A stretch of DNA of 64,000 nucleotides from contig JAJHOH010000001.1 in NCBI GenBank assembly GCA_021651055.1, positions 248,001-312,000 on the forward strand, in the 5' to 3' direction. Of the stretch, positions 10,812 to 60,587 are shown in pieces. How positions within the stretch are numbered: the stretch's first letter is position 1; every line of letters begins with the position of its first letter. A program made the position numbers and the translations under genes. The notes beneath the pieces are model-generated. The model saw only the letters and a list, made by a program, of their open reading frames with translations. It was not told where the DNA came from and made no database searches. This DNA is from Candidatus Manganitrophus morganii. Its GTDB lineage: Bacteria > Nitrospirota > Nitrospiria > SBBL01 > Manganitrophaceae.

Positions 10812-11671
10812 TGGAGTATATCGACATGCACGCCCACATGGCGTCCCGAACGACCGACGATTACGAACAGATGGCGCTGACCGGCTGCGTGGCGCTGACC
10901 GACCCCGCCTTCTGGGCCGGCTTCGACCGCTCCTCGGCCGACGGCTTCGACGATTATTTCCATCAGCTCACGGAAGTGGAGCCGAAGCGGGCGGCCCGGG
11001 TCGGCATCCGCCACTACACCTGGCTCTGTCTTAATCCGAAAGAGGCCGATAATCGTCCCCTGGCACGGGCAGTCATCGAAAAGATCCCGAAGTATCTCGA
11101 CCGGCCGAATGTCCTCGGGATCGGGGAGATCGGATTGAACCGGGTCACACGGAACGAGGTGGCGACCTTTCAGGACCATCTCGACCTCGCCGTCGCGCAC
11201 AATCAGATGATCCTCATCCACACCCCTCATCTTGAGGACAAATACAAAGGAACACGGATCATCGTGGAGACCCTTTTGAAAGATGGGCGGATCGATCCCG
11301 GACGGATACTGATCGATCACGCGGAGGAACATACAATCGGGATGATCCTGGAAAACGGCTTTTGGGCAGGGATCACCCTCTACCCCCAGACCAAGGTTTC
11401 ACCCCAGCGGGCGATCGACATGGTCGAGCGGGCCGGACCGGAGCGGATCTGCGTCAGCTCCGCCTGCGACTGGGGGCCGAGTCTTCCGATCGCCATTCCC
11501 CGCTTCGCCCTGGAGATGCGGCGGCGGCGCCATACGGAAAGATCGATTCGAAAAATCATCTATGAGAATCCGGCCGCCTTTCTGAGCCAGTCTCCCCGCT
11601 TCATGCTTGAAGACGCGACGGACCGGAACGGGCAGAAAGCGGCTCCCTCCGCTCCTTTGGGAGCGCGGTAA
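10808..11671 (+). CDS. eboB: TatD-like metal-dependent hydrolase of the ebo cluster (EboB)
   Basis: 287 residues of the TatD/amidohydrolase TIM-barrel superfamily. Expected metal ligands are all visible: HAH at residues 8-10, Glu in GEIGLN near 115, His in IHTPH near 140, His in DHAEE near 175 and Asp in CDWGPS near 218. Start ATG 10808 overlaps the preceding stop and follows AAAGGAGAACG; an in-frame ATG at 10811 is equivalent. In published ebo operons the TatD-like member is EboB, and its substrate is unknown. The 4-nt gap to eboE supports one transcript. Confidence 0.85.
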
Positions 11672-34601: not shown

Positions 34602-36623
34602 TCACACCTTCAATAGATCTTTTGCGAACTGCATGAAGTTCTCGTCTTTCGGAAGCTGTCCAACCCATTTGGCGAAAAACCGGACTCTCCGTTTCCACGT
34701 ATCATCGGAATCTGAGACCTCGTCGCCGGTAACAGGATTGAACGTGTCTTTAAACAAAACACCGAGACATTCCGGAAGATATTGCGGTGGATGATTTTTC
34801 TCTTTTGCGGAAAGACAAAAATCGACCTCGACAAGATGATTCGCGATCCCTTCATCGAATCCCCCGATCGATTCAAAGAGCGCCCGCGCCACGCCGATCA
34901 TCCCCCCTCCGACGAACTCCGGATTCTGAAATCCCTCATTCGCCCAAATCTCCGTCATGATTCGATAAGGGGCCGCATTGAAATCAAACGCCATCCCAAG
35001 ACAATAAGGGGTCATGTCGACATTCCGGATCGGCGCTCCCGCGATCCCCTCCTGGATGGCCTCCGGCCACCCGGTCCCTTTAAGATAAAGAACCCCCGGC
35101 TTCATAAAAATGAAACGATCGCCCGTGGCGCACTCCGCCCCCCGGTTGTAAAGAAACGGAAGACGGTCATCGTTGGCCTCTACGATCCTCAGATCGCCGG
35201 AAAGCGCCGGGAGGAATGGCTTCATCTCCTCATCGTTCACAACGATCACCACTTCCCAATCGGGCCATTGAACTTTTTGGGCGAGGGATGTCATTGTCGC
35301 GAGGAGCGCTTCAGCGTCGGAACCGGAAGGGACGATCACGCTGACGCGGCCCGCAACAGCTTCTTGCAATTTAAGCCGTTTCGATTTTGCGCGCCCGCTC
35401 CGCGTCTCAAAAATCGTCCCCATCACCTCGACCGCCCGCTCGACTGACTTGCCGTCAATTTTATAAAAATATTCCTTCAGATATTGATCCACTTTTACCG
35501 TCACCTCCGGAGGGACGCCGCTTTGAACCGTATTCAGCAGATTCGACCAATTCCCCGGGGGAAAGGCGGTTTGAGCGATCCCCATCTTGACGTAATAGTC
35601 ATCCAGGGTATCCGCCGTCGGAAGGGTGAAAAGGGGTTTCCCGAAGGCCAGGGCCTCGATCGCCAGGGTGGTTTTTCCCAACGACACGCAGTAATCCGAG
35701 ATGGCGATTAATTTATAAGGGTCGTACATGTAATAAAGAGTAGCCGACGGATAGATCTCCTTGAACATCGCTTCGATTTTTTCATACGCCCCCTGTATCA
35801 CGTTGGGATGCCACTTAAAGAGCAGCACCGCCTCCGAATCGAGTTGGTCCAGACCTTTCAGGAAACTCTGCCAGTTCTCTCGATCGACGATCCCCCCATA
35901 TTTAATATCGACCAGAAAAAGAATGACCTTCTTATCGCCGGGGATGGACAGCTCCTTCTTGATCTGATCGACCGTTCCCGGGGAGCCATACGTCTTGATG
36001 GCGCTGTCGATATGGGTGTTTCCGATCAAAAACATTTTATCGTCCGAGCAGAGATATTCTTTTAATACCTCCTTCGTTTTGTTTCCCCACAATAAATCGA
36101 CATTCGAGTATTCGGTATGAACGATGAGCCCAATGTAGTCGTTGTAGTAATCTCCCTCCTGAAACGTCACGAAGGGAACCTTTTTTCCCCGGGCCAGATG
36201 TCCGATGATTTGGCCCCATCGATTACACTCATGGTGGGCGATGAACATATCCGGATTTTCCACCTCAATATACTTCTCCATGCAGAAGTACTCTTCAACG
36301 AGGGAATCGAAAAACCAGCCCTGCTTGAACAAAGACCATCGACTGAATCCATCCCATTTATAACTGGTCTCCGTCCAGCGACCGGACAATTCGATGTGGG
36401 TCTCTCGGATCTTCTGTCGCACGTCCGCCGTCATATAATCGGTAAAATACTTAAAAGAAAGATTTCGTTTGATCAAATCCCTTTCGAAGGGATAGTCGGA
36501 CAAGGGGACGATGAAAGTGATCTCCCCTCCCTGCTTTTTAATCTCCTCCCGAAGCGGGATGAAAAACCGAGTATGGTGGGGGAGCGCCAGAAAACAGGCA
36601 ATCTTTTTATTTTTCAACTTCAT
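34602..36623 (-). CDS. Two-domain glycosyltransferase (surface-glycan/flagellar)
   Basis: 673 residues. The N-terminal part (about 1-400) resembles GT-B-type transferases of surface polymers related to CDP-glycerol glycerophosphotransferases (for example the stretch ISDYCVSLGKTTLAIEALAFGKPLF near 310). The C-terminal part (about 410-650) is a family-2 transferase: it opens with RVSVIVPSGSDAEALLAT and has a late GGGMIGVARALFESIGGFDEG with ends typical of GT2 acceptor sites. No signal peptide. It overlaps the upstream gene by 17 nt and precedes fliW and fliC, so flagellin is a likely acceptor; that is inference. Confidence 0.7.
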   Translation of the reverse strand: MKLKNKKIACFLALPHHTRFFIPLREEIKKQGGEITFIVPLSDYPFERDLIKRNLSFKYFTDYMTADVRQKIRETHIELSGRWTETSYKWDGFSRWSLFKQGWFFDSLVEEYFCMEKYIEVENPDMFIAHHECNRWGQIIGHLARGKKVPFVTFQEGDYYNDYIGLIVHTEYSNVDLLWGNKTKEVLKEYLCSDDKMFLIGNTHIDSAIKTYGSPGTVDQIKKELSIPGDKKVILFLVDIKYGGIVDRENWQSFLKGLDQLDSEAVLLFKWHPNVIQGAYEKIEAMFKEIYPSATLYYMYDPYKLIAISDYCVSLGKTTLAIEALAFGKPLFTLPTADTLDDYYVKMGIAQTAFPPGNWSNLLNTVQSGVPPEVTVKVDQYLKEYFYKIDGKSVERAVEVMGTIFETRSGRAKSKRLKLQEAVAGRVSVIVPSGSDAEALLATMTSLAQKVQWPDWEVVIVVNDEEMKPFLPALSGDLRIVEANDDRLPFLYNRGAECATGDRFIFMKPGVLYLKGTGWPEAIQEGIAGAPIRNVDMTPYCLGMAFDFNAAPYRIMTEIWANEGFQNPEFVGGGMIGVARALFESIGGFDEGIANHLVEVDFCLSAKEKNHPPQYLPECLGVLFKDTFNPVTGDEVSDSDDTWKRRVRFFAKWVGQLPKDENFMQFAKDLLKV

Positions 36624-37791
36624 GGAATGTCCTCACGCAACGATTTAAGATATCGACGACCCCCACCTTTTTTCTCTTCTCCTCATAGGCTTTCTTCAGC
36701 GACGCCGTGAGGTCTTCCAGACGGTTCTTAAAGTTCACCCCATTCACATCCGGGAGCGGATCATAACAGGGGTTATACACCCACGCTTTAATACCGTATC
36801 GGGCGGCAAATTCCAACGGCACGACATAAGTTGGCGCAATCACCACATCGGAGGTCATTACAATCGGGACCAGACTCGGCTGCTCTACCAAATAGAATCG
36901 ACAACCGATCTTCCGGATCGGATCGAAGAAGAGATCTTTTATGATTTCGTCTTCCTGCAATTCTCGAATTACGAAATCCCGCTTCAATAAAAACAACACC
37001 ACCGGTATCTTCGATTCCTCGAGCGCCTTAAAAACTTCGATAATCTGCGGCCTGAGTTTTCCATGGTTGCAAACGACGACCCCCAACTCATCCCGGCTTA
37101 TTTCGATTTGAGAATTGTAGATATGGTTTTTATACGTGTCCTCGATGGTGGAAAGGGAATAGATGTCTTTCTCCTCCGTCAGCAGGTGGATCTTTTCAGG
37201 AGCGATCCCCATCTTGACATGGAATTCCCTTTCAAATTCCTTCCGGACGATAATCGCGTCCATCAACTGCGGCATCAACTTCACCCCGTTGAAAACAGGA
37301 TAAAGCTGATAACCGACCACCTTGATCCCGGCTTCCTTCGCCATAAAGAGGAGGGTGGTGTAAAAAATATCGGTCTCCTCCCACGGCGCGTCGTCATGAG
37401 ACATCAACGGGAACATCACCACATCGGCGTCGACCGTCTGTATCTCGGGAAAAGCGCAGGTGGAGATATGCCCCCAGAAGTCGTCGAACGCGGCGGTCTT
37501 CCATATTTCCAGATCGGTCTTCGGCAGGCAAAGATCATGCGTATATTGAACGAATATCTTTGCAAGGTTATCCCGATAGTCAAACGTGAGCGGCAGAAAC
37601 TTCGGCTCGACAAACGTGACGACAATAGGATGATCCGGGCCGAGTTTTTGATTCAGGTCGTCGCAAACCTCTTTGGAATTGGTGATCAGCTCCACCCGGA
37701 ACGTCTTCGACAATAATTTCACCAGGTTCCCAATCCTTCCTTGGGTCGTTTCATAATCTCTTTGGCCGATCGGCAACAATAACTTTTTCAT
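36607..37791 (-). CDS. Putative GT-B-like protein of the flagellar glycan locus
   Basis: 394 residues from ATG 37791, which overlaps the stop of the upstream TPR gene. Two Rossmann-like halves can be seen: an N-terminal part with KLLLPIGQRDYETTQGRIGNLVKLLS and a C-terminal part with LGVVVCNHGKLRPQIIEVFKALEESKIPVVLFL and TSDVVIAPTYVVPLEFAARYGIKAWVY near 330, the latter like the nucleotide-sugar site of GT-B enzymes. No close family is recognised. Context argues for a glycosyltransferase or sugar-binding role. Confidence 0.55.
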   Translation of the reverse strand: MKKLLLPIGQRDYETTQGRIGNLVKLLSKTFRVELITNSKEVCDDLNQKLGPDHPIVVTFVEPKFLPLTFDYRDNLAKIFVQYTHDLCLPKTDLEIWKTAAFDDFWGHISTCAFPEIQTVDADVVMFPLMSHDDAPWEETDIFYTTLLFMAKEAGIKVVGYQLYPVFNGVKLMPQLMDAIIVRKEFEREFHVKMGIAPEKIHLLTEEKDIYSLSTIEDTYKNHIYNSQIEISRDELGVVVCNHGKLRPQIIEVFKALEESKIPVVLFLLKRDFVIRELQEDEIIKDLFFDPIRKIGCRFYLVEQPSLVPIVMTSDVVIAPTYVVPLEFAARYGIKAWVYNPCYDPLPDVNGVNFKNRLEDLTASLKKAYEEKRKKVGVVDILNRCVRTFHEVEK

Positions 37792-38354
37792 CAATGCTCC
37801 TGTTGATTCCGCGGGCAGTCGATTTTGTCGATAATCTCATACGCTTTTTTGAGCCATTCATTCCGGGCGGCGTAGGATAACTTCCGGACGAGCGCTTTAA
37901 TCTCGACCTGCTGGAAGGCGAGCCGATACGACGTCGGAAGGAGATTTTCGTAGACCTCTTTTAAGACCCCTTCGTGGCTGTATCGATAATCATAAACCGC
38001 CGCGTCTCCATTCCCCTTCGCCAACAGATAATGGATCAGCGTCTCCAGCATCTCGTCATATCTTTTTTGGTCCATCAGGAGAAGCGCTTTGATAAAAAGA
38101 AAATCGAGATAATCTTTTTTGACGGAAAGCCCTTGATCGACATATCGGCAGGCCCCCTCGAAATCGGCCTGTTCCAGCGAGAGAACGGCGAGGGTCGATA
38201 CGATCCCCAAATAGACCGGGTTGTCTTCCCGTATTTCTTCCTGGGAGACCTGCGTCAGCGCCCTTTTTAGCGTCTCCCTGGCCGGATCCTTCAAGTTCAA
38301 TTTAAGATAGGAGAGGCCCGAATGATAATTGGCCGTATACGATTCAGTCGTCAT
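37791..38354 (-). CDS. TPR-like protein
   Basis: 187 residues of helix pairs with tetratricopeptide spacing (for example YHSGLSYLKLNLKDPARETLKRAL at 10-33 and DFEGACRYVDQGLSV at 64-78). No signal peptide or membrane segment, so probably a cytoplasmic adaptor. AAGGA precedes ATG 38354. Its start overlaps the end of the decayed pseI frame (stop at 38344-38346), which shows that the two genes were once translationally coupled. TPR proteins occur in protein-glycosylation systems, but no partner is shown here. Confidence 0.7.
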   Translation of the reverse strand: MTTESYTANYHSGLSYLKLNLKDPARETLKRALTQVSQEEIREDNPVYLGIVSTLAVLSLEQADFEGACRYVDQGLSVKKDYLDFLFIKALLLMDQKRYDEMLETLIHYLLAKGNGDAAVYDYRYSHEGVLKEVYENLLPTSYRLAFQQVEIKALVRKLSYAARNEWLKKAYEIIDKIDCPRNQQEH

Positions 38355-38549
38355 CTGATTTTCCTTCGACGAGCGCCCATGTCAGCGGCGCTCCTCTTTG
38401 AATGTGACACTTCTATTTTTTCCCAAGGACCTTTCCAAGGTATTTTGGGGCAAGGCAAATCCAAACCGAATCGACCGGACGTTTTCCTCGGTAAACATCT
38501 CCCCGGCCTTGATCTCCTTCACGACAAAGAAGTTGCTCCTTTTTGGAAA
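38344..38549 (-). pseudogene. pseI: Decayed C-terminal SAF domain of a nonulosonate synthase (pseI/neuB type)
   Basis: In one minus-strand frame the sequence reads FFVVKEIKAGEMFTEENV then RSIRFGFA, the SAF (antifreeze-like) domain of PseI/NeuB. Near 38450 the match jumps to the next frame: LAPKYLGKVLGKK, an in-frame TAG, then KCHIQRGAPLTWALVEG and a stop at 38344-38346, which is the normal end of the family. So at least one frameshift and one nonsense codon break it. The N-terminal TIM-barrel (about 250 residues) is absent. Its stop overlaps the TPR start, as in an intact operon. PseI condenses phosphoenolpyruvate with the hexose released by PseG. Confidence 0.8.
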
Positions 38550-38696
38550 TCATGCAGTCGGAATACATCCACTTTCGAGCTCCCTCATGATTTCGTCCCC
38601 TCGAACCCGTCCACTCCCGGCGCCCAGATGGTTAAAATTGATTAATCTGAAACTGTCTAATCAGCGTTTTGTCTCAAACGAACTCCTTTCAAGCGC
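38550..38696 (-). other. Non-coding stretch between an unknown gene and the pseI remnant
   Basis: 147 bases with no frame I can match to PseI or another family. AAAGGAG lies just after the upstream stop, like an orphan ribosome-binding site. It may be the junction of the deletion that removed the front of pseI. Confidence 0.5.
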
Positions 38697-39452
38697 TTAT
38701 CCATTCGAGACATCGGCAAACACCATTAACCTCTTGTATCTCTGGACCGTGTTTCTCGGGATATCGAAGAAATTATAATAGCTGCCGTCGGACCGAATTG
38801 CGTAAAAAGTATGGAACTGCGGACATTCGCTCAGTCGGATTATTTCGGGGTCGCCGTCTGCGGGTCGATGATTGAGGAAATCGGAATATCTTTGGAGGAT
38901 CTCCCCTGTCTGCGCCGGATACCGGAAGAAAGTTGGATACTGATCCACGACGGTTTTGAACTCGAAAAATCCCTCCTTCGAGTAATACATCGGCAGGTCG
39001 ACCGGATGGATATTCCAGATCTCCTCCGAATCGAGCATGGCGATTTTGAATTTAGAGGCCGATTCGATCTCTCGTCTGATCTCTTCTGTCGCATCCCCTT
39101 TCTCCGAATCCCAAACCAATCTGAAATGATCTCTAAGGACCCATTCATGTTTTTTGTATCGCTTCTTGCTCATCAATCTCGCCCCCCGCGTGAAGGGGTT
39201 GTAGCTGCAAAAGAGAGGCCCGATATTGGTATAGGCAAAGGCGACCTCTGCCGTCTTCCCCGATCCCGGAGCGTGCCCCAGATGGGTCGTTTCCGATTTC
39301 CCCCAGAAAGAATATCCATTGATGAGGACATGCGGCAGGTCATACGTCTCGATATGTTCAGGACGGTTGGATGCGATGGCGTCATCCGGGACCATAAAGG
39401 TCCTTAATGAAGCGCCATCCAGCAACCGTTGAACGATCTCTTGATCGATCAC
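38697..39452 (-). CDS. Unknown protein of the flagellar glycan locus
   Basis: 251 residues with a GTG start at 39452, chosen because AAGGAG lies 7 nt upstream; ATG candidates further upstream overlap the previous gene. A soluble, mixed alpha/beta protein without signal peptide; aromatic-rich C-terminal half. A GHAPGSGKTAEVAFAY segment looks like a P-loop at first sight but lacks the following helix and Walker B, so ATP binding is doubtful. It starts 5 nt after the aminopeptidase-like gene. I do not recognise the family. Confidence 0.6.
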   Translation of the reverse strand: MIDQEIVQRLLDGASLRTFMVPDDAIASNRPEHIETYDLPHVLINGYSFWGKSETTHLGHAPGSGKTAEVAFAYTNIGPLFCSYNPFTRGARLMSKKRYKKHEWVLRDHFRLVWDSEKGDATEEIRREIESASKFKIAMLDSEEIWNIHPVDLPMYYSKEGFFEFKTVVDQYPTFFRYPAQTGEILQRYSDFLNHRPADGDPEIIRLSECPQFHTFYAIRSDGSYYNFFDIPRNTVQRYKRLMVFADVSNG

Positions 39453-39456
39453 GCTC

Positions 39457-40770
39457 TCACTCCTTATCAACAAAGGAAACCAGTCCCTTTTCCTCGTACT
39501 TCTGAACGTACTGATGGAGCTTGGTGTAATCGATATCGTGTTTGATTGCGATCTCGAGCAGGGTCGTCTTTTCGTCGAAATACCGGCCGAGACAGTCCAT
39601 CAGATAATTCCATTTTTTCTGATCTTCGGCCACCGTCGGACGGATGCTCGGATCAGCGGTCGAAATGTAGAGATCATATTTCGGGTTGCTGAGGGCGACC
39701 AGTCCCTTGAAATGGCGCTTCAACGTCGTGTTCGTCTCGAGGATATTGAGCATCCCCAAGACGGTCTGGACCGCTTCCTCCAGCTTGTCCTCGAAGATGA
39801 TCCGCTCGTCATCAAGACTGGAATGATACTCCGGATACATCGGGTGGGCGCGGGAGAGCGAGATGAAGGGGATCTCGAAGCCGGGGGCTTCCCAGACGGT
39901 CTCGTCGTTTCCGACCACCTTCCTAAAGTCGGCCTCATGGATGTCGGAGAAATTTCGCGTGAGATAGACCTTCGCCGCTTTGTCGATGAGGCTCTCTCCG
40001 GTGAACGATTTCTGCAAGGCAAATCGGTTTTGATGTCCAAGCATTTCGAGAAACATCCCCCCTCGGAACGTCTTCACCACCTCCTCCGGGAGGTTCGCCA
40101 GATAAAAAACGGTTCCCAAATGCTCCGGCGCGATGATCGCCCGGTAGCTGTATTTTCTCTTCTTTCTCTGGGCCAGACGCTTCATGATCTCCACCGTCAC
40201 GACGATCCCGGAGACGTCGTCGTTCGCTTGTCCCGCGTGGCAATCATGGGCGTTGAAGAGAATGGTCTCTTTCGTCTCTCCTTCCAAAAAATAATCCAAC
40301 ACTTTCATCGTCCCAGGTTCGGCGACGGTCTCCAAGATCACCTCGTACTCCCCCCGATCGAGCTCTTTGTAAAGCTGATGCGGAATCGACATCCCCCAGT
40401 CCCGCCGCCACGGCTTGTAGTAGTAATCGCAGTGATAAACCAGCGCCTCCGGAAAGACCGGGTGATAGAAGAGATGCTTTTTCAGCTCTTCCAGAGAGAC
40501 TTTCCCGGTGAAAGAGGTGGAGTAGCCGATCACCCCCAATGGATGCTTCATTCCGTCGTAGATCGTCTTTCCGTTTTTCTTGATCTCCGCCCGGACCGCT
40601 TTCCATTTTTGCGGAACGGTCCAGCCGTTGTGCTCCAGGCTCGACGCGTATTCGTGGATTTGAAACGGCAGGACGCCGCGGAGGATTTCCGCCGCCTTGT
40701 CGGTGTCTTCCGACACCGGGGCCAACCGAAGAGGGTAGATTTTTTTCAGAAGATCAAACATCGCGCTCAT
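39457..40770 (-). CDS. M28-like peptidase-fold protein (DUF4910 type) with C-terminal winged helix
   Basis: 437 residues. The co-catalytic metal region of M28-type peptidases is visible: HDCHAGQANDDVSG near 200 (His and Asp ligands), Glu in APEHLG near 238 and His in YHSSLDD near 330. The last 70 residues look like a winged helix (LLEIAIKHDIDYTKLHQYVQKYEEKGLVSFV). Proteins of this layout occur in surface-sugar loci, where they may remove an N-acyl or amino-acid group from a sugar rather than cut peptides; that is inference. It overlaps the formyltransferase-like gene by 4 nt. Confidence 0.75.
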   Translation of the reverse strand: MSAMFDLLKKIYPLRLAPVSEDTDKAAEILRGVLPFQIHEYASSLEHNGWTVPQKWKAVRAEIKKNGKTIYDGMKHPLGVIGYSTSFTGKVSLEELKKHLFYHPVFPEALVYHCDYYYKPWRRDWGMSIPHQLYKELDRGEYEVILETVAEPGTMKVLDYFLEGETKETILFNAHDCHAGQANDDVSGIVVTVEIMKRLAQRKKRKYSYRAIIAPEHLGTVFYLANLPEEVVKTFRGGMFLEMLGHQNRFALQKSFTGESLIDKAAKVYLTRNFSDIHEADFRKVVGNDETVWEAPGFEIPFISLSRAHPMYPEYHSSLDDERIIFEDKLEEAVQTVLGMLNILETNTTLKRHFKGLVALSNPKYDLYISTADPSIRPTVAEDQKKWNYLMDCLGRYFDEKTTLLEIAIKHDIDYTKLHQYVQKYEEKGLVSFVDKE

Positions 40771-41846
40771 TTTTCTTCCTCCGTTGCATGCAGTGTCCCA
40801 CCCTGTTCTTCTACCAGGCCGGCCGCATTGTACTCGGCGCTGTAGAGCATCGCCTCCTCCAGGACCTTCATCGGCGTAAAGAAACGCTGTCCCACTTTGA
40901 GAGTAGGAATCAAATCGCGCCCCTTCTCATCCGACACCTCGCGGACCACCAACGCCCCCTCGCGGGTCGCGATGAAAACGGAGCGATCGACCATCCGGTA
41001 GATCAGCCCCGACATAAAAGGATGGAACGGCCCCTCACCAGCATCGGCTTGGCATTGTTTCAGAAAAACCCGACGGCCGTTTAAAAAAGTCGACGCCCCA
41101 GGGTAAGGATCGTCAAAGGCGGAAATCATCGTCTCGATCTCGTCGCAATTCCACGACCAGTTGATCCATCCATGCCGCAGGGTATGAAGCCTCGGGAAAT
41201 AGGAGCTGAAGTTTTCCTGGAGTTTTGCCAGCCCGAATTCTTTCCCGGACTGGACTTCATCGAGAAACTCGCAGAAGAGCTTGAACCCTTCCTCGTGCGC
41301 GGCGTCGTAATAATCGTTCGGGATCTTGGCCGACGGCGGGAGAAAATACTCCCTCGTTTTTAAAATCTCGCCGGAGTCAAAGACACCGGGGATCATCTCT
41401 TCATTGATCACCTGAATATTCCAACAGCCGATCCGGTTCTTTCGAAGGATTTGCCAAGTAAAATGCGCCCCCCCCCGATATTGCGGAAGCCGGATCGTCA
41501 TGAAATCGAAGAGCTTCCCTTGAAAGAGGGCGATCGTCTCCTTCGAAAAAGTGTATGCCTCGCCGAGCCCGATTCCGATCGCCGCGCTCGAAACCACGGA
41601 GGGAAGCTCCGGAGCGCGGTTGATATCGTCGGCATGGAAGAAAGGGATCTTTTCTTTCTCCAACACCTCGCGCAACGTGGGACCGCCCCCTCCTTCCAGC
41701 GCCTCTTCAAGGTGGCGTTTCACGGCGAAGAGGGTCGTTTTGATTTTTCGCTTGATCGCCTCTTTTGCGAACGCGACCATCAACGGCCCCCCTCCGAAGA
41801 GGACCAGATGGTCAATCGGGCCGATTTTAATTGTCGATTTCATCAT
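40767..41846 (-). CDS. Formyltransferase-family protein of the glycan locus
   Basis: 359 residues from ATG 41846 (in-frame second ATG at 41843). The fold is shown by IRLPQYRGGAHFTWQI near 120-135 and GVFDSGEIL near 160, the region that carries the active site of Fmt/ArnA-type formyltransferases. By alignment the catalytic Asn and His of the N-x-H-x-S-L-L-P motif are replaced (D-x-M-x-I-R-L-P), while the catalytic Asp (FDSGE) remains. So it may be inactive as an N10-formyl-THF transferase or use other chemistry. A C-terminal FMT-like domain follows. It lies 28 nt after pseG. Confidence 0.7.
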   Translation of the reverse strand: MMKSTIKIGPIDHLVLFGGGPLMVAFAKEAIKRKIKTTLFAVKRHLEEALEGGGGPTLREVLEKEKIPFFHADDINRAPELPSVVSSAAIGIGLGEAYTFSKETIALFQGKLFDFMTIRLPQYRGGAHFTWQILRKNRIGCWNIQVINEEMIPGVFDSGEILKTREYFLPPSAKIPNDYYDAAHEEGFKLFCEFLDEVQSGKEFGLAKLQENFSSYFPRLHTLRHGWINWSWNCDEIETMISAFDDPYPGASTFLNGRRVFLKQCQADAGEGPFHPFMSGLIYRMVDRSVFIATREGALVVREVSDEKGRDLIPTLKVGQRFFTPMKVLEEAMLYSAEYNAAGLVEEQGGTLHATEEEK

Positions 41847-41874
41847 GAAAGTCGTCCCTTTCTCGCCGGCGGAT

Positions 41875-42864
41875 CTAAAGCCCCAATACGAAATCTCGGA
41901 CGCGCCCGCTTCCTCCGCCATCGACGAGTCTTTTCCCAAGATGACTTCTTCGCGCTCTTTCCCCTTGATCTCTCAACCGAATGAGGGAGGTGAGGACCCT
42001 TTCAAGGGCGGTGTGATTTTCCCACCAGCCGGCGTAATCGATAAAGCCGGCGCGCTCCCATCCCATCACGTTGTTCACCTGATTCTCCGCGACGGCCATC
42101 GCGACCGCCGGCAAGCCGATCCTCGCCAACTCATAGAGTGTTTGCCCGCCGGCGGAGACGGCCACGTCGGAATCGAGCATGGCTCTCTTCATCCCATCGG
42201 CGCCCGGAAAATAAATCAGCTCGGTACGGCTGTCCTTCAACCGTTCAATTTTTTCAACGTCCCGGAAACCTTTTCCGATAATGACCCTCTTGCTGCACTC
42301 CGGGAAAGCGTCGACGAGCAAACCCAATACCTTTGGCGTCATCCCGCGCGCATCATCTCCGCCGAACGTGATCAGAATACGACCGATCGTCTCTGGGGTT
42401 TCTCTCTGGGGCGCCTCCCAGAATTCCCTGCGAAGGAGAATATATTTGCTCCCCAACAGATAGCTCCTTCCGCCCCCTTGCGGATAATCCATCTCCTCCG
42501 CGTAAAGGGTTCCGTTCACCACCACCCCTTCAGGATAGTCGAGCCGCTGAGTATCGTCGATGAAAACGGGGCATTTCGCCTGCTTCGAGACTGCCTCGTA
42601 GACCCCCTTCTCGGCGAGATAAGAATCGACCACCATAATTTCGGCGCCCGTCATCAACGAAGAGAGCTTCGACCGATCGCTCCGCCAAGAAAGGATTCGG
42701 TATTGTTTCCCGTGAAGCAGCCCCACGACACTTTCATCCCCTTCCACGATCAGTTCGGCCGGAATCCCCCTCTCCTCGAACGCCTGATACAACGCGGTGC
42801 ATCGGGTGACATGTCCAAAACCGATTTCGCGACGCCCTTCCGTTAGAATCAAAACCTTAATCAT
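41875..42864 (-). CDS. pseG: UDP-2,4-diacetamido-2,4,6-trideoxy-beta-L-altropyranose hydrolase
   Basis: 329 residues, GT-B fold without transferase activity. The UDP-binding region and catalytic His lie in GFGHVTRCTAL near residue 15; the second half has ITFGGDDARG and SAGGQTLYELARIGLPA, typical of MurG-like enzymes and PseG. It releases UDP from the doubly acetylated sugar, giving the hexose that PseI would condense with phosphoenolpyruvate. ATG 42864 overlaps the pseH end; AGGAAAAG precedes it. Intact, although its partner gene pseI is decayed. Confidence 0.88.
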   Translation of the reverse strand: MIKVLILTEGRREIGFGHVTRCTALYQAFEERGIPAELIVEGDESVVGLLHGKQYRILSWRSDRSKLSSLMTGAEIMVVDSYLAEKGVYEAVSKQAKCPVFIDDTQRLDYPEGVVVNGTLYAEEMDYPQGGGRSYLLGSKYILLRREFWEAPQRETPETIGRILITFGGDDARGMTPKVLGLLVDAFPECSKRVIIGKGFRDVEKIERLKDSRTELIYFPGADGMKRAMLDSDVAVSAGGQTLYELARIGLPAVAMAVAENQVNNVMGWERAGFIDYAGWWENHTALERVLTSLIRLRDQGERARRSHLGKRLVDGGGSGRVRDFVLGL

Positions 42865-43447
42865 TTCGTCTTTTCCTGTTCCAGTCCGGCCGAATGAGGC
42901 CCAAGAGTATATCTTCGACGTAGGATCCATTCGAATAAAACTGGTCCTTTCGAACCCCTTCCACCACAAAACCGGCCTTCAGAAACGCCTGGGCGGAGCC
43001 TCCATTGGAACCGTAACACCCGGCGGTCACCTTATGGAGATTTAAAACGTTGAAGGCATAATCGGAAACCAGTTGAATCGCCTCGGTCGCATACCCTTTT
43101 CCCCAACACTCTTTCTCGCCGATTAGAAGGCCGATGTCGGCAATACGATGAATCCATTGGATCGGCCCCAACTTGATATTTCCGATGTGGCGATCCTTCT
43201 TTTTTAAGACAATCGCAAGAAAGGTATTGTCGCGATCCCCCAGTTTGCCGGCGACATAGTCACGGAGATTCTCGATCGCGTTCGGAGCAAACCGGCTCTC
43301 CAGGAACCGGGTTGTCTCCGGATCGTTCATCCAATGATAGTAGCGCTCGTTGACGTCCGAAGGCCTCACCTCGCGGAGATAGATCCGTTTTCCTTCCAAA
43401 AAGTAGGTCAATGCTTCACCTTTTTTCCGGCCCCCGGCCTCTGGCAC
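42857..43447 (-). CDS. pseH: GNAT N-acetyltransferase, PseH-like
   Basis: 196 residues of the GNAT fold: LEGKRIYLREVRPSDVNERYYHWMNDPE at the start, the acetyl-CoA loop in GKGYATEAIQLV near 118 and FLKAGFVVEGVRKDQ near 155. It acetylates the 4-amino group of UDP-4-amino-4,6-dideoxy-AltNAc before PseG. The GTG start at 43447 has GGAGGGGG upstream; a TTG at 43411 with AAGGTG is possible and would fit the family length better. Coupled to pseG by overlap. Confidence 0.85.
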   Translation of the reverse strand: MPEAGGRKKGEALTYFLEGKRIYLREVRPSDVNERYYHWMNDPETTRFLESRFAPNAIENLRDYVAGKLGDRDNTFLAIVLKKKDRHIGNIKLGPIQWIHRIADIGLLIGEKECWGKGYATEAIQLVSDYAFNVLNLHKVTAGCYGSNGGSAQAFLKAGFVVEGVRKDQFYSNGSYVEDILLGLIRPDWNRKRRND

Positions 43448-46114: not shown

Positions 46115-48157
46115 CTAAACCTTCCGAAAGACCGGCTCCAGAAACCGTCCTTCGATCATTTCATCGAGTATGTTGTATTCCAGGGTGTATTTCAGGATCT
46201 CCATCACTTCGTCGTAGACCGACAAGACCCGGTCGATTTTTTCATGATCGTGAGGGAGAGAAACATTATGCCCTCCGGTAAAGAGGACCCCCCGCTTGAC
46301 GCACTCTTGCTGGAAGAGCGTTTTCATCTTCAGGACCGCCTTCTCCTCCCCTTTGAAATTGAGGACCGTCCGAATCGGATAGCCGTCGATCGAAAGGGTC
46401 GCTTCCAGCCCCTTCTCACGAATCTGCTGCTCGATTCCGTTCTTCAACCGCTCCCCTTGCTTCCAAAGGAAAGGGGTCACCTTATTTTCAAGGATGTATT
46501 GGATCGTCGCGATCGCCGCCGCAATCGAAAGGGTCTCACCCCCGAAGGTAAACGAGAAGAAGATCTCATCGAAGAACTTCATGATGTCCCGTTTTCCGAC
46601 AATGGCGGAGACCGGCATTCCGTTGGCCATCGCTTTGCCGAAACAGGCGAGGTCGGGGGTCACATCGAAATAGGCCTGCGCGCCGCCGATATCAAACCGA
46701 AAGCCGGTGACCACCTCGTCGAAAACCAGAATCGCCCCCTGTTCGTGCGCCATCTTCTTCACTTTGGCGAGAAAATTCTTTTGAGGCGGTTCGAGGCTGA
46801 CCGGCTCCAGGATCACACAGGCGATCTGATTCGGATGGCGGTCGAAAACGGCCTGAAGACTCTCGATCCGGTTGTACTGGAACGTGACCGTTTTTTTCTT
46901 CACCTCCTCCGGAATGCCGAGGCTTCGCGTCGTGGTGGCGATATACCAATCTTGCCAGCCGTGATAACCGCAGCAGGCGACGATTTCCCTCCCGGTGGCG
47001 GCCCGCGCCAGACGGACGGCGGCGGAGGTGACATCGGAGCCGTTCTTCCCGAACCGGACCATCTCGGCGGAGGGGATGATCCGGGTGAGCAGCTCGGCCA
47101 GGTCGTATTCGAGATGATGAGGAAGGGTATAGGCCGTTCCTTTTTTCAGCGTCGCCTCGATCTCTCGGTTGACCGGCTCAAACGCATACCCGAGAAGACA
47201 GGCCCCCAGCCCCATCGTGAAGTCGATGAATCGGTTTCCATCAAGATCGGTCAGAAGCGCCCCCTTTCCCTCCCGCACGAAAAGCGGCGCGGCGCCGACG
47301 CTGAACTGGAGGGACGACTTGCTGAAGGTCTGCGATCCCCCCGGGATGATCCGCATGACCTTGTCGAATTGGGAGAGACTCTTCTCGAATCGGAGCGGCT
47401 TCCCTTTCATCGCTTGAATGCCGGTCTTGTCCCCTTCCAAAGAACGCCGATATCCCTCGTTCGGCACGATGTGTTTTGTCTTTTCGACCAATGTGGGATT
47501 CGCTTTGACGAGACCCGCCACGTCGGCGTAGGTGAAGTCGCGTCCTTCCAATTGTTTGAGGATCGATTCGAGAACGTCGGCATCTTCCTTGTAATCGAGA
47601 CTGAGATGAATATGGGAGAGGTCCTCCTCCTCATAAGGAAGAAAGGCGGTGTTGAACCGCTTTGATCGTCGAAGATACGGCCCTACATGTTCCCGCTCGG
47701 ACGGCAGCTTCGCCTCCGAGTCGGCCTTCAGGATCGCCTTCCCCGACATCACCTCCACGTCGAAGCCGTCGATGATCCTCGTCAGGATCAGGTAGTCGGG
47801 TTTGAGCGCATCGAATTGGGTCAGCGCATGCTGGACAAGCCGAGGGTCGGTGAGAAGACAATCGCCGGTGATCCGGACCACCGCGTCAAGCCGATAGGCC
47901 CGAACCGCCTTGGCAAACCGGCTGAGGACATCCTCCACGCTCCCCCGGACCACCTGCCAACCGCGCCTCTGGGCAATCTCCGCCAAAGGATCGTCCTCCT
48001 TTGCCTCGGAGGTGGCCAAGATCCGTTGATCGATCGCGATCTTCTCGCATCGCTCCAGGACCCATTCGATCGCCGGACGTCCGAGTAAAGGATGGAGCAT
48101 CTTCCGCGGATAACGACTGGAACCGTTTCTGGCCTGAACCACCACCGCACGCGGCAT
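46115..48157 (-). CDS. Fusion of SpsF-like cytidylyltransferase and class III aminotransferase
   Basis: 680 residues. The N-terminal part (about 1-240) is an SpsF/CMP-sugar cytidylyltransferase-like domain: VVQARNGSSRYPRKML at the start, RITGDCLLTDP near 95. The C-terminal part (about 250-680) is a class III PLP aminotransferase of the glutamate-1-semialdehyde aminotransferase type, with PGGSQTFSK, GKNGSDVTSAAVRLAR and the PLP Lys in CFGKAMANG near 520. No stop or frame change between the two. The first would activate a sugar acid with CTP, the second may aminate or isomerise an intermediate. Ten nt separate it from the next gene. Confidence 0.85.
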   Translation of the reverse strand: MPRAVVVQARNGSSRYPRKMLHPLLGRPAIEWVLERCEKIAIDQRILATSEAKEDDPLAEIAQRRGWQVVRGSVEDVLSRFAKAVRAYRLDAVVRITGDCLLTDPRLVQHALTQFDALKPDYLILTRIIDGFDVEVMSGKAILKADSEAKLPSEREHVGPYLRRSKRFNTAFLPYEEEDLSHIHLSLDYKEDADVLESILKQLEGRDFTYADVAGLVKANPTLVEKTKHIVPNEGYRRSLEGDKTGIQAMKGKPLRFEKSLSQFDKVMRIIPGGSQTFSKSSLQFSVGAAPLFVREGKGALLTDLDGNRFIDFTMGLGACLLGYAFEPVNREIEATLKKGTAYTLPHHLEYDLAELLTRIIPSAEMVRFGKNGSDVTSAAVRLARAATGREIVACCGYHGWQDWYIATTTRSLGIPEEVKKKTVTFQYNRIESLQAVFDRHPNQIACVILEPVSLEPPQKNFLAKVKKMAHEQGAILVFDEVVTGFRFDIGGAQAYFDVTPDLACFGKAMANGMPVSAIVGKRDIMKFFDEIFFSFTFGGETLSIAAAIATIQYILENKVTPFLWKQGERLKNGIEQQIREKGLEATLSIDGYPIRTVLNFKGEEKAVLKMKTLFQQECVKRGVLFTGGHNVSLPHDHEKIDRVLSVYDEVMEILKYTLEYNILDEMIEGRFLEPVFRKV

Positions 48158-50477: not shown

Positions 50478-51638
50478 TTATGCGCGGTCACGGAAGACCC
50501 GATCGACTGTTTCGATGACATAGGTCACCTCTTGTTGAGTCATCGCCGGAAAGATCGGAAGGCTGATCTCTCTTTGATAAAAGTTTTCCGCCGCCGGACA
50601 GAGGCCCTTTCGGTAGCCCATCTTCCGATAAACCGGATGCCGGTAAACAGGAAGATAGTGAACCTGGACTCCCAGGCCCTTCTCCCGGAGTAGATGGAAA
50701 ACTTCTTTTTTATCTGCTTTAAGAGAATCTTTCAATCGGATCGGATAAAGATGGTAAGAGGACACCGAGCCTGCGGCTTCCACGGGGAGATCGAAATAGG
50801 GATTCCCGTTGAACGCCGTGTGGTAAAGGGCCGCGATCTCTCTTCGCCTTGCAACGAACCGGTCGACTTTTTTTAGTTGAGAACGTCCTAACGCCGCTTG
50901 AAGATCGGTCATGCGGTAGTTGTATCCGAGCTCTTGTATTTCGTGGTACCAGTCGCCGTGGGAGGGCTCCAAAAAATCGGTTCGCTCAATTCCATGCGAC
51001 CGGAGCCGGTTCAGCCGTTGATAATAATCCTCACGGTTGGTGACAATGGCCCCCCCCTCTCCGGTGGTAATCGTCTTCACCGGATGAAAACTGAAAACGG
51101 TCATATCCGACAAACCGCCGATCTTCTTATTGGCATAGGAGGCGCCCAGCGCGTGGCAGGCGTCTTCGATCACGAGAAGCCGGTGTCGCTCCGCGATCTT
51201 GGCGATCGACTCCATGTCACAGGGGGTTCCCGCATAGTGAACCGGAACGATCGCCTTCAGATGACCCCGTTCTGCCTGAAGGGCCGATAGCGTTTTCTCA
51301 ATTTCAGAGGGACTCAGGTTGAAGGTCGCCGGATCGATATCGGCGAAGACCGGCTTTGCTCCCAGGAAGAGGGCCGCATTGCCGGTGGCTGCAAACGTAT
51401 TCGGAGAGGTCATGACGAGATCACCCGGTCCGAGGCCGGCGGCCTGATAAGCGAGATGAAGCGCGGCCGTTCCCGAAGCACAAGCGACGGCATACCGGGC
51501 GCCGCAATAGGCGGCGAGCGCCTCTTCAAAGGCGTCGACGGCCGGCCCCTGGGTCAGCCGGTCGGAACGAAGGACATCGACCACCGCCTGGATGTCTTCC
51601 TCGTCTATGGTCTGTCTCCCATAGGGGATCGTCTTCAT
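50478..51638 (-). CDS. pseC: UDP-4-amino-4,6-dideoxy-N-acetyl-beta-L-altrosamine transaminase
   Basis: 386 residues from ATG 51638, which overlaps the pseB stop (ATGA); the longer frame lies within pseB and is rejected. DegT/DnrJ/EryC1 aminotransferase: SGTAALHLAYQAAG near 60 and the PLP Lys in FSFHPVKTITTGEGG near 185. It aminates C4 of the PseB product with glutamate. Length and adjacency to pseB fit PseC exactly. Confidence 0.93.
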   Translation of the reverse strand: MKTIPYGRQTIDEEDIQAVVDVLRSDRLTQGPAVDAFEEALAAYCGARYAVACASGTAALHLAYQAAGLGPGDLVMTSPNTFAATGNAALFLGAKPVFADIDPATFNLSPSEIEKTLSALQAERGHLKAIVPVHYAGTPCDMESIAKIAERHRLLVIEDACHALGASYANKKIGGLSDMTVFSFHPVKTITTGEGGAIVTNREDYYQRLNRLRSHGIERTDFLEPSHGDWYHEIQELGYNYRMTDLQAALGRSQLKKVDRFVARRREIAALYHTAFNGNPYFDLPVEAAGSVSSYHLYPIRLKDSLKADKKEVFHLLREKGLGVQVHYLPVYRHPVYRKMGYRKGLCPAAENFYQREISLPIFPAMTQQEVTYVIETVDRVFRDRA

Positions 51639-52621
51639 CCGTTCTGAAGTTCCCTCACCATCTTTTCGATCTCTCCCGTCGTCAGCCGCCAGGGATTCTG
51701 ATCGCTGGAGTAGACGAATCCATCCCTCACAGGTTCCCCGCCGTTCTTTCGTTTTTCGTCCGACCACCAGGGAAAGTCGGGCTGGATCACAAAATGCTCC
51801 GGATACTCCAGGGTCCGCCTTCCATCTTCGATCGAGATCAGAAGTTCATGGAGTTTCTCGCCCGGACGGACGCCGATGATTTTAATCTTGCATTTGGGAA
51901 CGATCGCTTTGGCGATATCGACGATCGTCGCCGTGGGAATCTTCGGGACAAAAATCTCCCCTCCCTTCATTTGATCGAGCGCCTTTAAGACGAAGTCGAC
52001 CCCCTGATCGAGGGTAATCCAGAAGCGGGTCATCCTCTCATCGGTCACCGGGACGGAATCCCCTTTCTTTAGTTGCAGGAAATGGGGAACAACGCTCCCC
52101 CGGCTTCCGACGACGTTACCGTAGCGGACCACGCCGAAACGGGTGATCTTTCGACCGGCATAGGAATTCCCGGCGATGAAGAGCTTGTCCGAGCAGAGCT
52201 TGGTCGCCCCGTAGAGATTGACCGGGTTGCAAGCTTTGTCCGTGCTCAAAGCGACGATCCGCTTGATCCCGATGTCGATCGCGACGTCGATGATGTTTTG
52301 CGCGCCGATGATATTGGTTTTGATCGCTTCAAAAGGATTGTATTCCGCGGAGGGAACCTGTTTTAACGCGGCGGCGTGGATCAGGTATTCGACCCCCTCG
52401 AAAGCGCGGTAGAGACGGTCCTTATCCCGGACGTCTCCAATAAAGAAACGGAGGCAGGGATCGTCCATCATCCGCTGCATTTCGTATTGCTTGAATTCAT
52501 CTCTGCTGAAGACGATCAGCTTTTCAGGCCGGAACTTTGAAAGGACCCGCCGCACGAAACGCTTTCCAAAAGAACCGGTTCCCCCGGTGACCAAAATTGT
52601 TTTCCCGTTGAGATCGATCAT
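51635..52621 (-). CDS. pseB: UDP-N-acetylglucosamine 4,6-dehydratase (inverting)
   Basis: 328 residues, extended SDR. NADP motif GGTGSFG near 12; the region STDKACNPVNLYGATK near 120-140 holds the catalytic Thr/Asp/Lys and the YxxxK motif. It starts the pathway by making UDP-2-acetamido-2,6-dideoxy-beta-L-arabino-hexos-4-ulose. First gene of the long glycan operon running to fliW. The same N-terminus is seen in the partial gene at the left edge of the window. Confidence 0.95.
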   Translation of the reverse strand: MIDLNGKTILVTGGTGSFGKRFVRRVLSKFRPEKLIVFSRDEFKQYEMQRMMDDPCLRFFIGDVRDKDRLYRAFEGVEYLIHAAALKQVPSAEYNPFEAIKTNIIGAQNIIDVAIDIGIKRIVALSTDKACNPVNLYGATKLCSDKLFIAGNSYAGRKITRFGVVRYGNVVGSRGSVVPHFLQLKKGDSVPVTDERMTRFWITLDQGVDFVLKALDQMKGGEIFVPKIPTATIVDIAKAIVPKCKIKIIGVRPGEKLHELLISIEDGRRTLEYPEHFVIQPDFPWWSDEKRKNGGEPVRDGFVYSSDQNPWRLTTGEIEKMVRELQNG

Positions 52622-59837: not shown

Positions 59838-60587
59838 TTATCTCGGAAGGGTGATTTTCACCGTCGCGGCGTCGATCACCTCTCCGTAGACCGTCTTCTG
59901 GGAATCGAGGTTGACCACCGCCATCTGTCTTCCGAGAAAACCCTCTTCCTTGGCCCGGCCCATCGTAGCGATCCGCAATCCGCCCGATTCAACGATCATC
60001 GTCACCCGATCTCCCGAACGAATCACCGGCGCCGTCTCGACCATCTCGACGGAGATCGGCAGGCCAGCGCCGACGGAGCGGATCACCCTCTTTCCGATCA
60101 GCGCGTCGGGATCGAAGAGATAAGATTCCCCCGCGCGGGTCACTGCGACCGACCGGATCTCGACATCGTCCGGTCCGATCACTTGAGCGCGGCGGAGGGG
60201 CCGAATGGAAACGACGATCGATCGGATCATTTCGACATTCGCGGTGACCCACTGATGTGCGGCCGGTTTCCCGTTCGGTCTCGAAGAAATGAGGAAGACC
60301 ACCCGGCCAAGCAATCCGCCGCGCGACCCTTCCTTGACCTCCAATCCGTCCTCCATGACAAATGAACCGTCCGGTGGACGGAGAAGGCGAACCCGTATAT
60401 CGCTTTCATTTGAGGTAAGACGTTCCGCCACATAGGCGCGTATGGCGGTGCTGATCTTCTCTGCCGGGCCGGGAACGGTTTCCTGTTGAACGGCTGCTCC
60501 ATTTTCCAAACCATCCGCCGCCTCAACCGCGCCGACACCCGTGAAGATCACCATGATCAAAAACAGGATTCTAAAAAAACCGCTCAT
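59838..60587 (-). CDS. flgA: Flagellar P-ring assembly chaperone FlgA
   Basis: 249 residues with a signal peptide ending near EAAD. The C-terminal SAF domain and following beta domain are visible: PLRRAQVIGPDDVEIRSVAV near 130, LIGKRVIRSVGAGLPIS near 165 and GDRVTMIVESGGLRIATMGRAKEEGFLG near 195. It assists FlgI assembly in the periplasm. Located between flgG and flgH as in many gene orders. Confidence 0.92.
   Translation of the reverse strand: MSGFFRILFLIMVIFTGVGAVEAADGLENGAAVQQETVPGPAEKISTAIRAYVAERLTSNESDIRVRLLRPPDGSFVMEDGLEVKEGSRGGLLGRVVFLISSRPNGKPAAHQWVTANVEMIRSIVVSIRPLRRAQVIGPDDVEIRSVAVTRAGESYLFDPDALIGKRVIRSVGAGLPISVEMVETAPVIRSGDRVTMIVESGGLRIATMGRAKEEGFLGRQMAVVNLDSQKTVYGEVIDAATVKITLPR

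Follow-up and report, generated by a model that had tools for sequence, protein, structure and literature searches.

Remnants of pseH and pseI in the flagellar glycan cluster of Candidatus Manganitrophus morganii, and a second pse cassette that probably supplies the lost steps

The stretch of DNA considered here (the window; 64,000 nucleotides, positions 248,001 to 312,000 of contig JAJHOH010000001.1) belongs to Candidatus Manganitrophus morganii, whose genome (G000) is a single 4.29-Mb contig, and it was compared with five other members of the genus (G001-G005), some of whose genomes are incomplete. The window carries a flagellar glycan cluster on its minus strand. Genes pseB (51635..52621) and pseC (50478..51767) score 507 and 526 bits, above the curated cut-offs of 407.75 and 423.5, respectively. 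On the same strand lie a fusion of a cytidylyltransferase (CTP_transf_3) with a class-III aminotransferase (46115..48157), which is a candidate CMP-transfer enzyme, a GNAT acetyltransferase gene (42857..43447), a gene for a PseG-like UDP-sugar hydrolase (41875..42864; 139 bits, just below the cut-off of 153.55) and one for a formyltransferase-like protein with a Pfam match to Formyl_trans_C (40767..41939). The cluster also has an intact 258-aa gene (38697..39473) that has no Pfam or NCBIfam match, and an intact TPR gene (37791..38354) that was recovered in all five of the other genus genomes and in one genome from another family of the same taxonomic order.

A preliminary description of this DNA had placed pseB, pseC, pseG and pseH at the locus. 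The first two stand, and the third does so as a PseG-like gene scoring just under its cut-off, but the presumed pseH at 42857-43447 is another acetyltransferase: it reaches 35.2 bits against the PseH (TIGR03585) cut-off of 93.1, the solved proteins that it matches best are spermidine acetyltransferases, and the congeners carry it besides a true pseH. No protein of G000 passes the PseH cut-off. The cluster also includes, at 39457-40770, a gene for an M28/DUF4910 aminopeptidase-like protein that is strongly conserved in the genus. Three conserved proteins without a Pfam match (395 aa, 36607-37794; 673 aa, 34602-36623; and the 258-aa protein of 38697-39473) are candidates for the transfer or modification of the flagellin glycan. 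An Rfam search of the 64-kb window returned no match.

Between the 258-aa gene, which ends at 38697, and the TPR gene, which starts at 38354, the minus strand holds no intact gene. What is found there, at 38344..38529 (minus), is a remnant of pseI, recognized by tblastn and by alignment with the intact pseI of G001-G004. It comprises the last ~186 nucleotides of the gene, that is, the C-terminal SAF part only; the TIM barrel is absent, and a 1-nt frameshift and an in-frame TAG interrupt what is left. Across 38344-38549 one minus frame reads FFVVKEIKAGEMFTEENVRSIRFGFA, and the next frame reads LAPKYLGKVLGKK, a stop codon, then KCHIQRGAPLTWALVEGKSDDD and a second stop. This terminal TGA (38344-38346) overlaps the TPR start (ATG at 38352-38354, minus), so that the pseI stop and the TPR gene overlap by 11 nucleotides in G000 as in the congeners. 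With the genome's own intact PseI (described below) as query, tblastn matched both frames of the remnant, at E values of 6e-12 and 6e-6; the alignment scores 108, and the best of 150 shuffled versions of the gap reached 55. By itself the remnant scores only 14.5 bits with the Pfam SAF profile, below the cut-off of 21, and the decisive evidence is therefore the DNA alignment with the congeners, which shows 87% identity over 160 aligned nucleotides.

The preliminary description had proposed a decayed pseI in this gap, with a SAF start in one minus frame, a shift into the next frame with a TAG, continuation to the family C terminus, and a stop overlapping the TPR gene. All of this agrees with the comparison, and four of the five relatives hold an intact pseI at exactly this place. 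Its proposed span of 38344-38549 is correct up to about 38529; the remaining positions, 38530-38549, are pseH sequence. The profile search that it called for gave the sub-threshold SAF match just noted, and the congener alignment nevertheless identifies the segment as pseI. Another SAF match, at about 60036-60218 of the window, was considered as part of PseI and rejected, as it belongs to a distinct protein of 251 aa encoded at a different locus.

The pseH sequence is itself a remnant (38530..38713, minus), identified by alignment with pseH of G001-G004. It represents about the first third of the gene at ~75% DNA identity, is frameshifted and contains stops, and its start lies within the end of the 258-aa gene. 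In G001-G004 a pseH of about 190 codons lies directly 5' of an intact pseI, which in turn directly precedes the TPR gene with the same overlap. The G002 ortholog of the deleted gene scores 150.1 bits with TIGR03585, above the cut-off, and its best solved match is 4ri1, a PseH. The DNA of G000 is collinear with G002 and G004 save for one gap of ~1.26 kb, with its junction at 38529..38532 (minus) and at most 2-4 nucleotides of microhomology. This single deletion took the 3' two thirds of pseH together with the TIM barrel of pseI, and fused the stumps of the two genes within the flagellar glycan cluster. Two further parts of the preliminary description, that pseI was broken mainly by a frameshift and that an intact pseH remained in the window, do not hold: the loss of the TIM barrel is due to the deletion, and the same event also truncated the true pseH. 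In G001, where the contig is short (L015 1768-2207), pseH is broken into two frames, which may reflect misassembly, damage or a further loss in progress.

At least four lesions are present, namely the large deletion, a 1-nt deletion in pseI, a change of TCG to TAG in pseI, and indels in pseH; the additional small lesions in both genes indicate that decay went beyond the large deletion. Changes specific to G000, pooled over both remnants, fall at codon positions 1 and 2 versus 3 in a ratio of 23:13, whereas the flanking genes show a bias to position 3, at 19:29 (Fisher p = 0.047, from few sites). Judged by these changes, by the disabling lesions in pseI and by the intact orthologs directly 5' of TPR in G001-G004, the remaining pseI and pseH sequence is that of a pseudogene under relaxed constraint. 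The rest of the cluster differs. Its scored genes, which exclude the formyltransferase, give dN/dS values of 0.05-0.29 against G002, similar to those of the control pair G002-G004, and the PseG-like hydrolase is among those under purifying selection. Such normal constraint indicates that the pathway is still in use and that losing the pair did not shut the cluster down.

A second pseI elsewhere, one of the possibilities raised in the preliminary description, was borne out by a search of the whole genome. PseI2, an intact gene for a protein of 348 aa at 238964-240007 of the contig (minus), lies ~46 kb from the pseI remnant and 8 kb to the left of the window. It scores 508 bits with TIGR03586, well over the PseI cut-off of 340.25, and 276 bits with the NeuB model, under the cut-off of 399.65; it resembles 8h2c, a pseudaminic acid synthase of solved structure (E = 4e-80), and dN/dS against the copy in G005 is 0.056. 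It is the sole PseI/NeuB nonulosonate synthase of the genome. The other PF03102 match, at 2.6 Mb, was rejected as a second synthase, as its sequence and its position between an aminotransferase gene and a prephenate-dehydrogenase-like gene mark it as a DAHP synthase.

PseI2 is the last gene of a cassette with the order pseB2-pseC2-AKR-SpsF/aminotransferase-PIG-L-pseG2/GNAT-formyltransferase-pseI2, in which pseB2 and pseC2 are both over their cut-offs, AKR is an aldo-keto reductase, SpsF/aminotransferase is a cytidylyltransferase/aminotransferase fusion, PIG-L is a deacetylase, and PseG2 is fused to a GNAT domain. The cassette is a complete second pse gene set. From its sugar-nucleotide and glycosyltransferase-like neighbours the host locus is read as polysaccharide-related. 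The cassette recurs in G005 with an identical gene order, beside a homologous chain-length-type gene, with most genes 78-91% identical to those of G000 and PseG2 59% identical, while G002 has different polysaccharide genes at this site. PseI2 and the resident PseI share 52-54% identity and fall on separate, fully supported branches of the tree, a difference in descent of the kind that defines xenologous displacement. Outside the genus, the nearest relatives of PseI2 (up to 85% identity) are mostly from Pseudomonadota, and it groups beside synthases of freshwater proteobacteria; no donor is named, since support for the inner order of the tree is weak and the branch of one row is extreme. A fusion of cytidylyltransferase and class-III aminotransferase occurs in both pse clusters (46115-48157 in the window and L019:10975-13014).

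The reading favoured here, with a probability of roughly three in four, is that the pseH-pseI pair was deleted, that the cassette replaces both steps in trans, and that redundancy permitted the loss. The comparisons show that pseH and pseI formerly stood in the flagellar cluster, after the 258-aa gene and before the TPR gene as in four congeners, and that the ~1.26-kb deletion, small indels and a nonsense change ruined both; the presence of the complete second cassette is equally plain. PseI2 and the acetyltransferase domain of PseG2 would then supply the two lost steps, flagellin would still be modified with a pseudaminic-acid-type sugar, and the flagellar cluster and polysaccharide cassette would draw on one soluble pool. 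It would have been the redundancy brought by the cassette that made loss of the resident pair possible. That the strain has lost its final sugar, another possibility raised earlier, is disfavoured by the normal constraint on the rest of the cluster and by the presence of a complete second pathway.

Of the two steps supplied, that of PseH is the less secure, as no G000 protein passes the PseH cut-off; the GNAT domain of PseG2 itself reaches 36.1 bits against 93.1. None of 10 genomes with PseI2-type synthases has a PseH above the cut-off either, and at all four of the loci inspected in such genomes a gene of PseG-GNAT size lies directly or one gene 5' of pseI, with the best PseH-like match falling inside that gene at two of the four. 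This arrangement suggests that the fused domain performs the PseH step. Sharing of one sugar pool by the cassette and the flagellar cluster is plausible by analogy with Aeromonas caviae Sch3N, in which, according to PMC7874193 (citing Tabei et al. 2009), a single pse locus adjoining the O-antigen genes provides for LPS as well as for polar flagellin. The PIG-L and formyltransferase genes of the cassette point to a sugar whose N-acyl groups are different, and so the pool may differ chemically from the former product of the flagellar cluster.

Other explanations bear on what flagellin now receives. The pathway may have been redirected, so that PseB, PseC and the formyltransferase yield an aminated or formylated hexose as the end product, which is now put on flagellin, with the cassette serving the polysaccharide only. 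The retention and constraint of the GNAT, amidotransferase and PseG-like genes, and the lack of any G000 gene passing the PseH cut-off, would fit such a change; the constrained PseG-like hydrolase and the cytidylyltransferase fusion, however, have no obvious role in a hexose product, the downstream genes are the same as in congeners that have pseI, and an intact PseI2 resides in the same cytoplasm, so that redirection is considered improbable. Still less probable is that the flagellar glycan was simply lost and the remaining genes await decay. Destruction of two pathway genes is what such a loss would bring, yet the scored remaining genes are open at dN/dS 0.05-0.29 while the remnants already bear several lesions, and G005 is in the same state at far greater divergence with its other genes still constrained. 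An assembly or sequencing error is very hard to credit, even though the deletion is known here from the assembled sequence: 1.26 kb missing, several separate lesions on either side, in a single 4.29-Mb contig, and remnants 75-87% identical to intact relatives resemble neither base-call errors nor a chimera of near-identical strains.

Loss of the resident pair with replacement in trans, as favoured above, has parallels among known systems. The resident pseH-pseI of G001-G004 has the same place, neighbours and pseI/TPR overlap, but pseI is intact there whereas G000 keeps only the two stumps; in terms of the PseI family (TIGR03586; 8h2c), what is left of the resident member is its SAF end, without a TIM barrel or an open frame. 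The A. caviae Sch3N locus is alike in that one pse set next to polysaccharide genes can supply O-antigen as well as flagellin, and unlike in being a single locus, whereas the second, flagellar cluster of G000 persists with two steps lost. Gene loss backed by an unrelated copy is a known process, of which G000 is a clear and well-resolved example. As in other cases of non-orthologous displacement beside a xenolog, a resident stump remains in place while a distant, probably functional homolog lies elsewhere; the difference is that two adjoining genes of a pathway would be replaced together, and that a fused domain is predicted to stand in for PseH. The genome preserves well an intermediate of gene displacement, with stumps, intact relatives and the likely replacing cassette all within one genus. 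It is also a warning that a glycan pathway should not be judged dead from one cluster when the missing steps are 46 kb away. If supply in trans is true, flagellin glycosylation and the surface polysaccharide would share a common sugar pool.

The pair is also missing from G005, the most distant genus member, which has a larger deletion at the same site (L017 ~11100-11270) that leaves ~70 nucleotides of pseH and ~110 of pseI. Since G002 and G004 are closer to G000 and yet intact, two losses, in G000 and in G005, are the simplest reading; a nested deletion handed on by recombination is a possible alternative. The pair is lost in both genomes that have the cassette and in none of the four without a detected cassette synthase, in which pseI is kept (Fisher p = 0.067), a link between cassette and loss that, in six genomes of which some are incomplete, is suggestive only. 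More tentatively, and with somewhat less than an even chance of being right, lineages of the genus with a pse cassette in a polysaccharide locus may repeatedly lose the flagellar pseH-pseI, so that the flagellin sugar comes to depend on a swappable (serotype-like) cassette. If so, the flagellar glycan would be tied to the surface-polysaccharide type.

As to its history, the deletion may have been imported by recombination from a relative that is more divergent and had already lost the pair, an origin compatible with supply in trans and considered possible rather than probable. Identity to G002 and G004 falls over 38250-39500 from mostly 94-99% to 78-92%, and this stretch of locally high divergence includes the intact 258-aa gene 5' of the deletion, with a dS of 0.57 where most of the cluster has 0.07-0.27; trees nevertheless group both this gene and the remnants with G002 and G004, so that a locally high rate could also account for the divergence. 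On these comparisons the low-identity stretch itself is likely a recombined allele, a locally high rate being the possible alternative. A second, smaller dip in identity occurs at 42750-43250, over the GNAT gene (dS 0.47-0.55).
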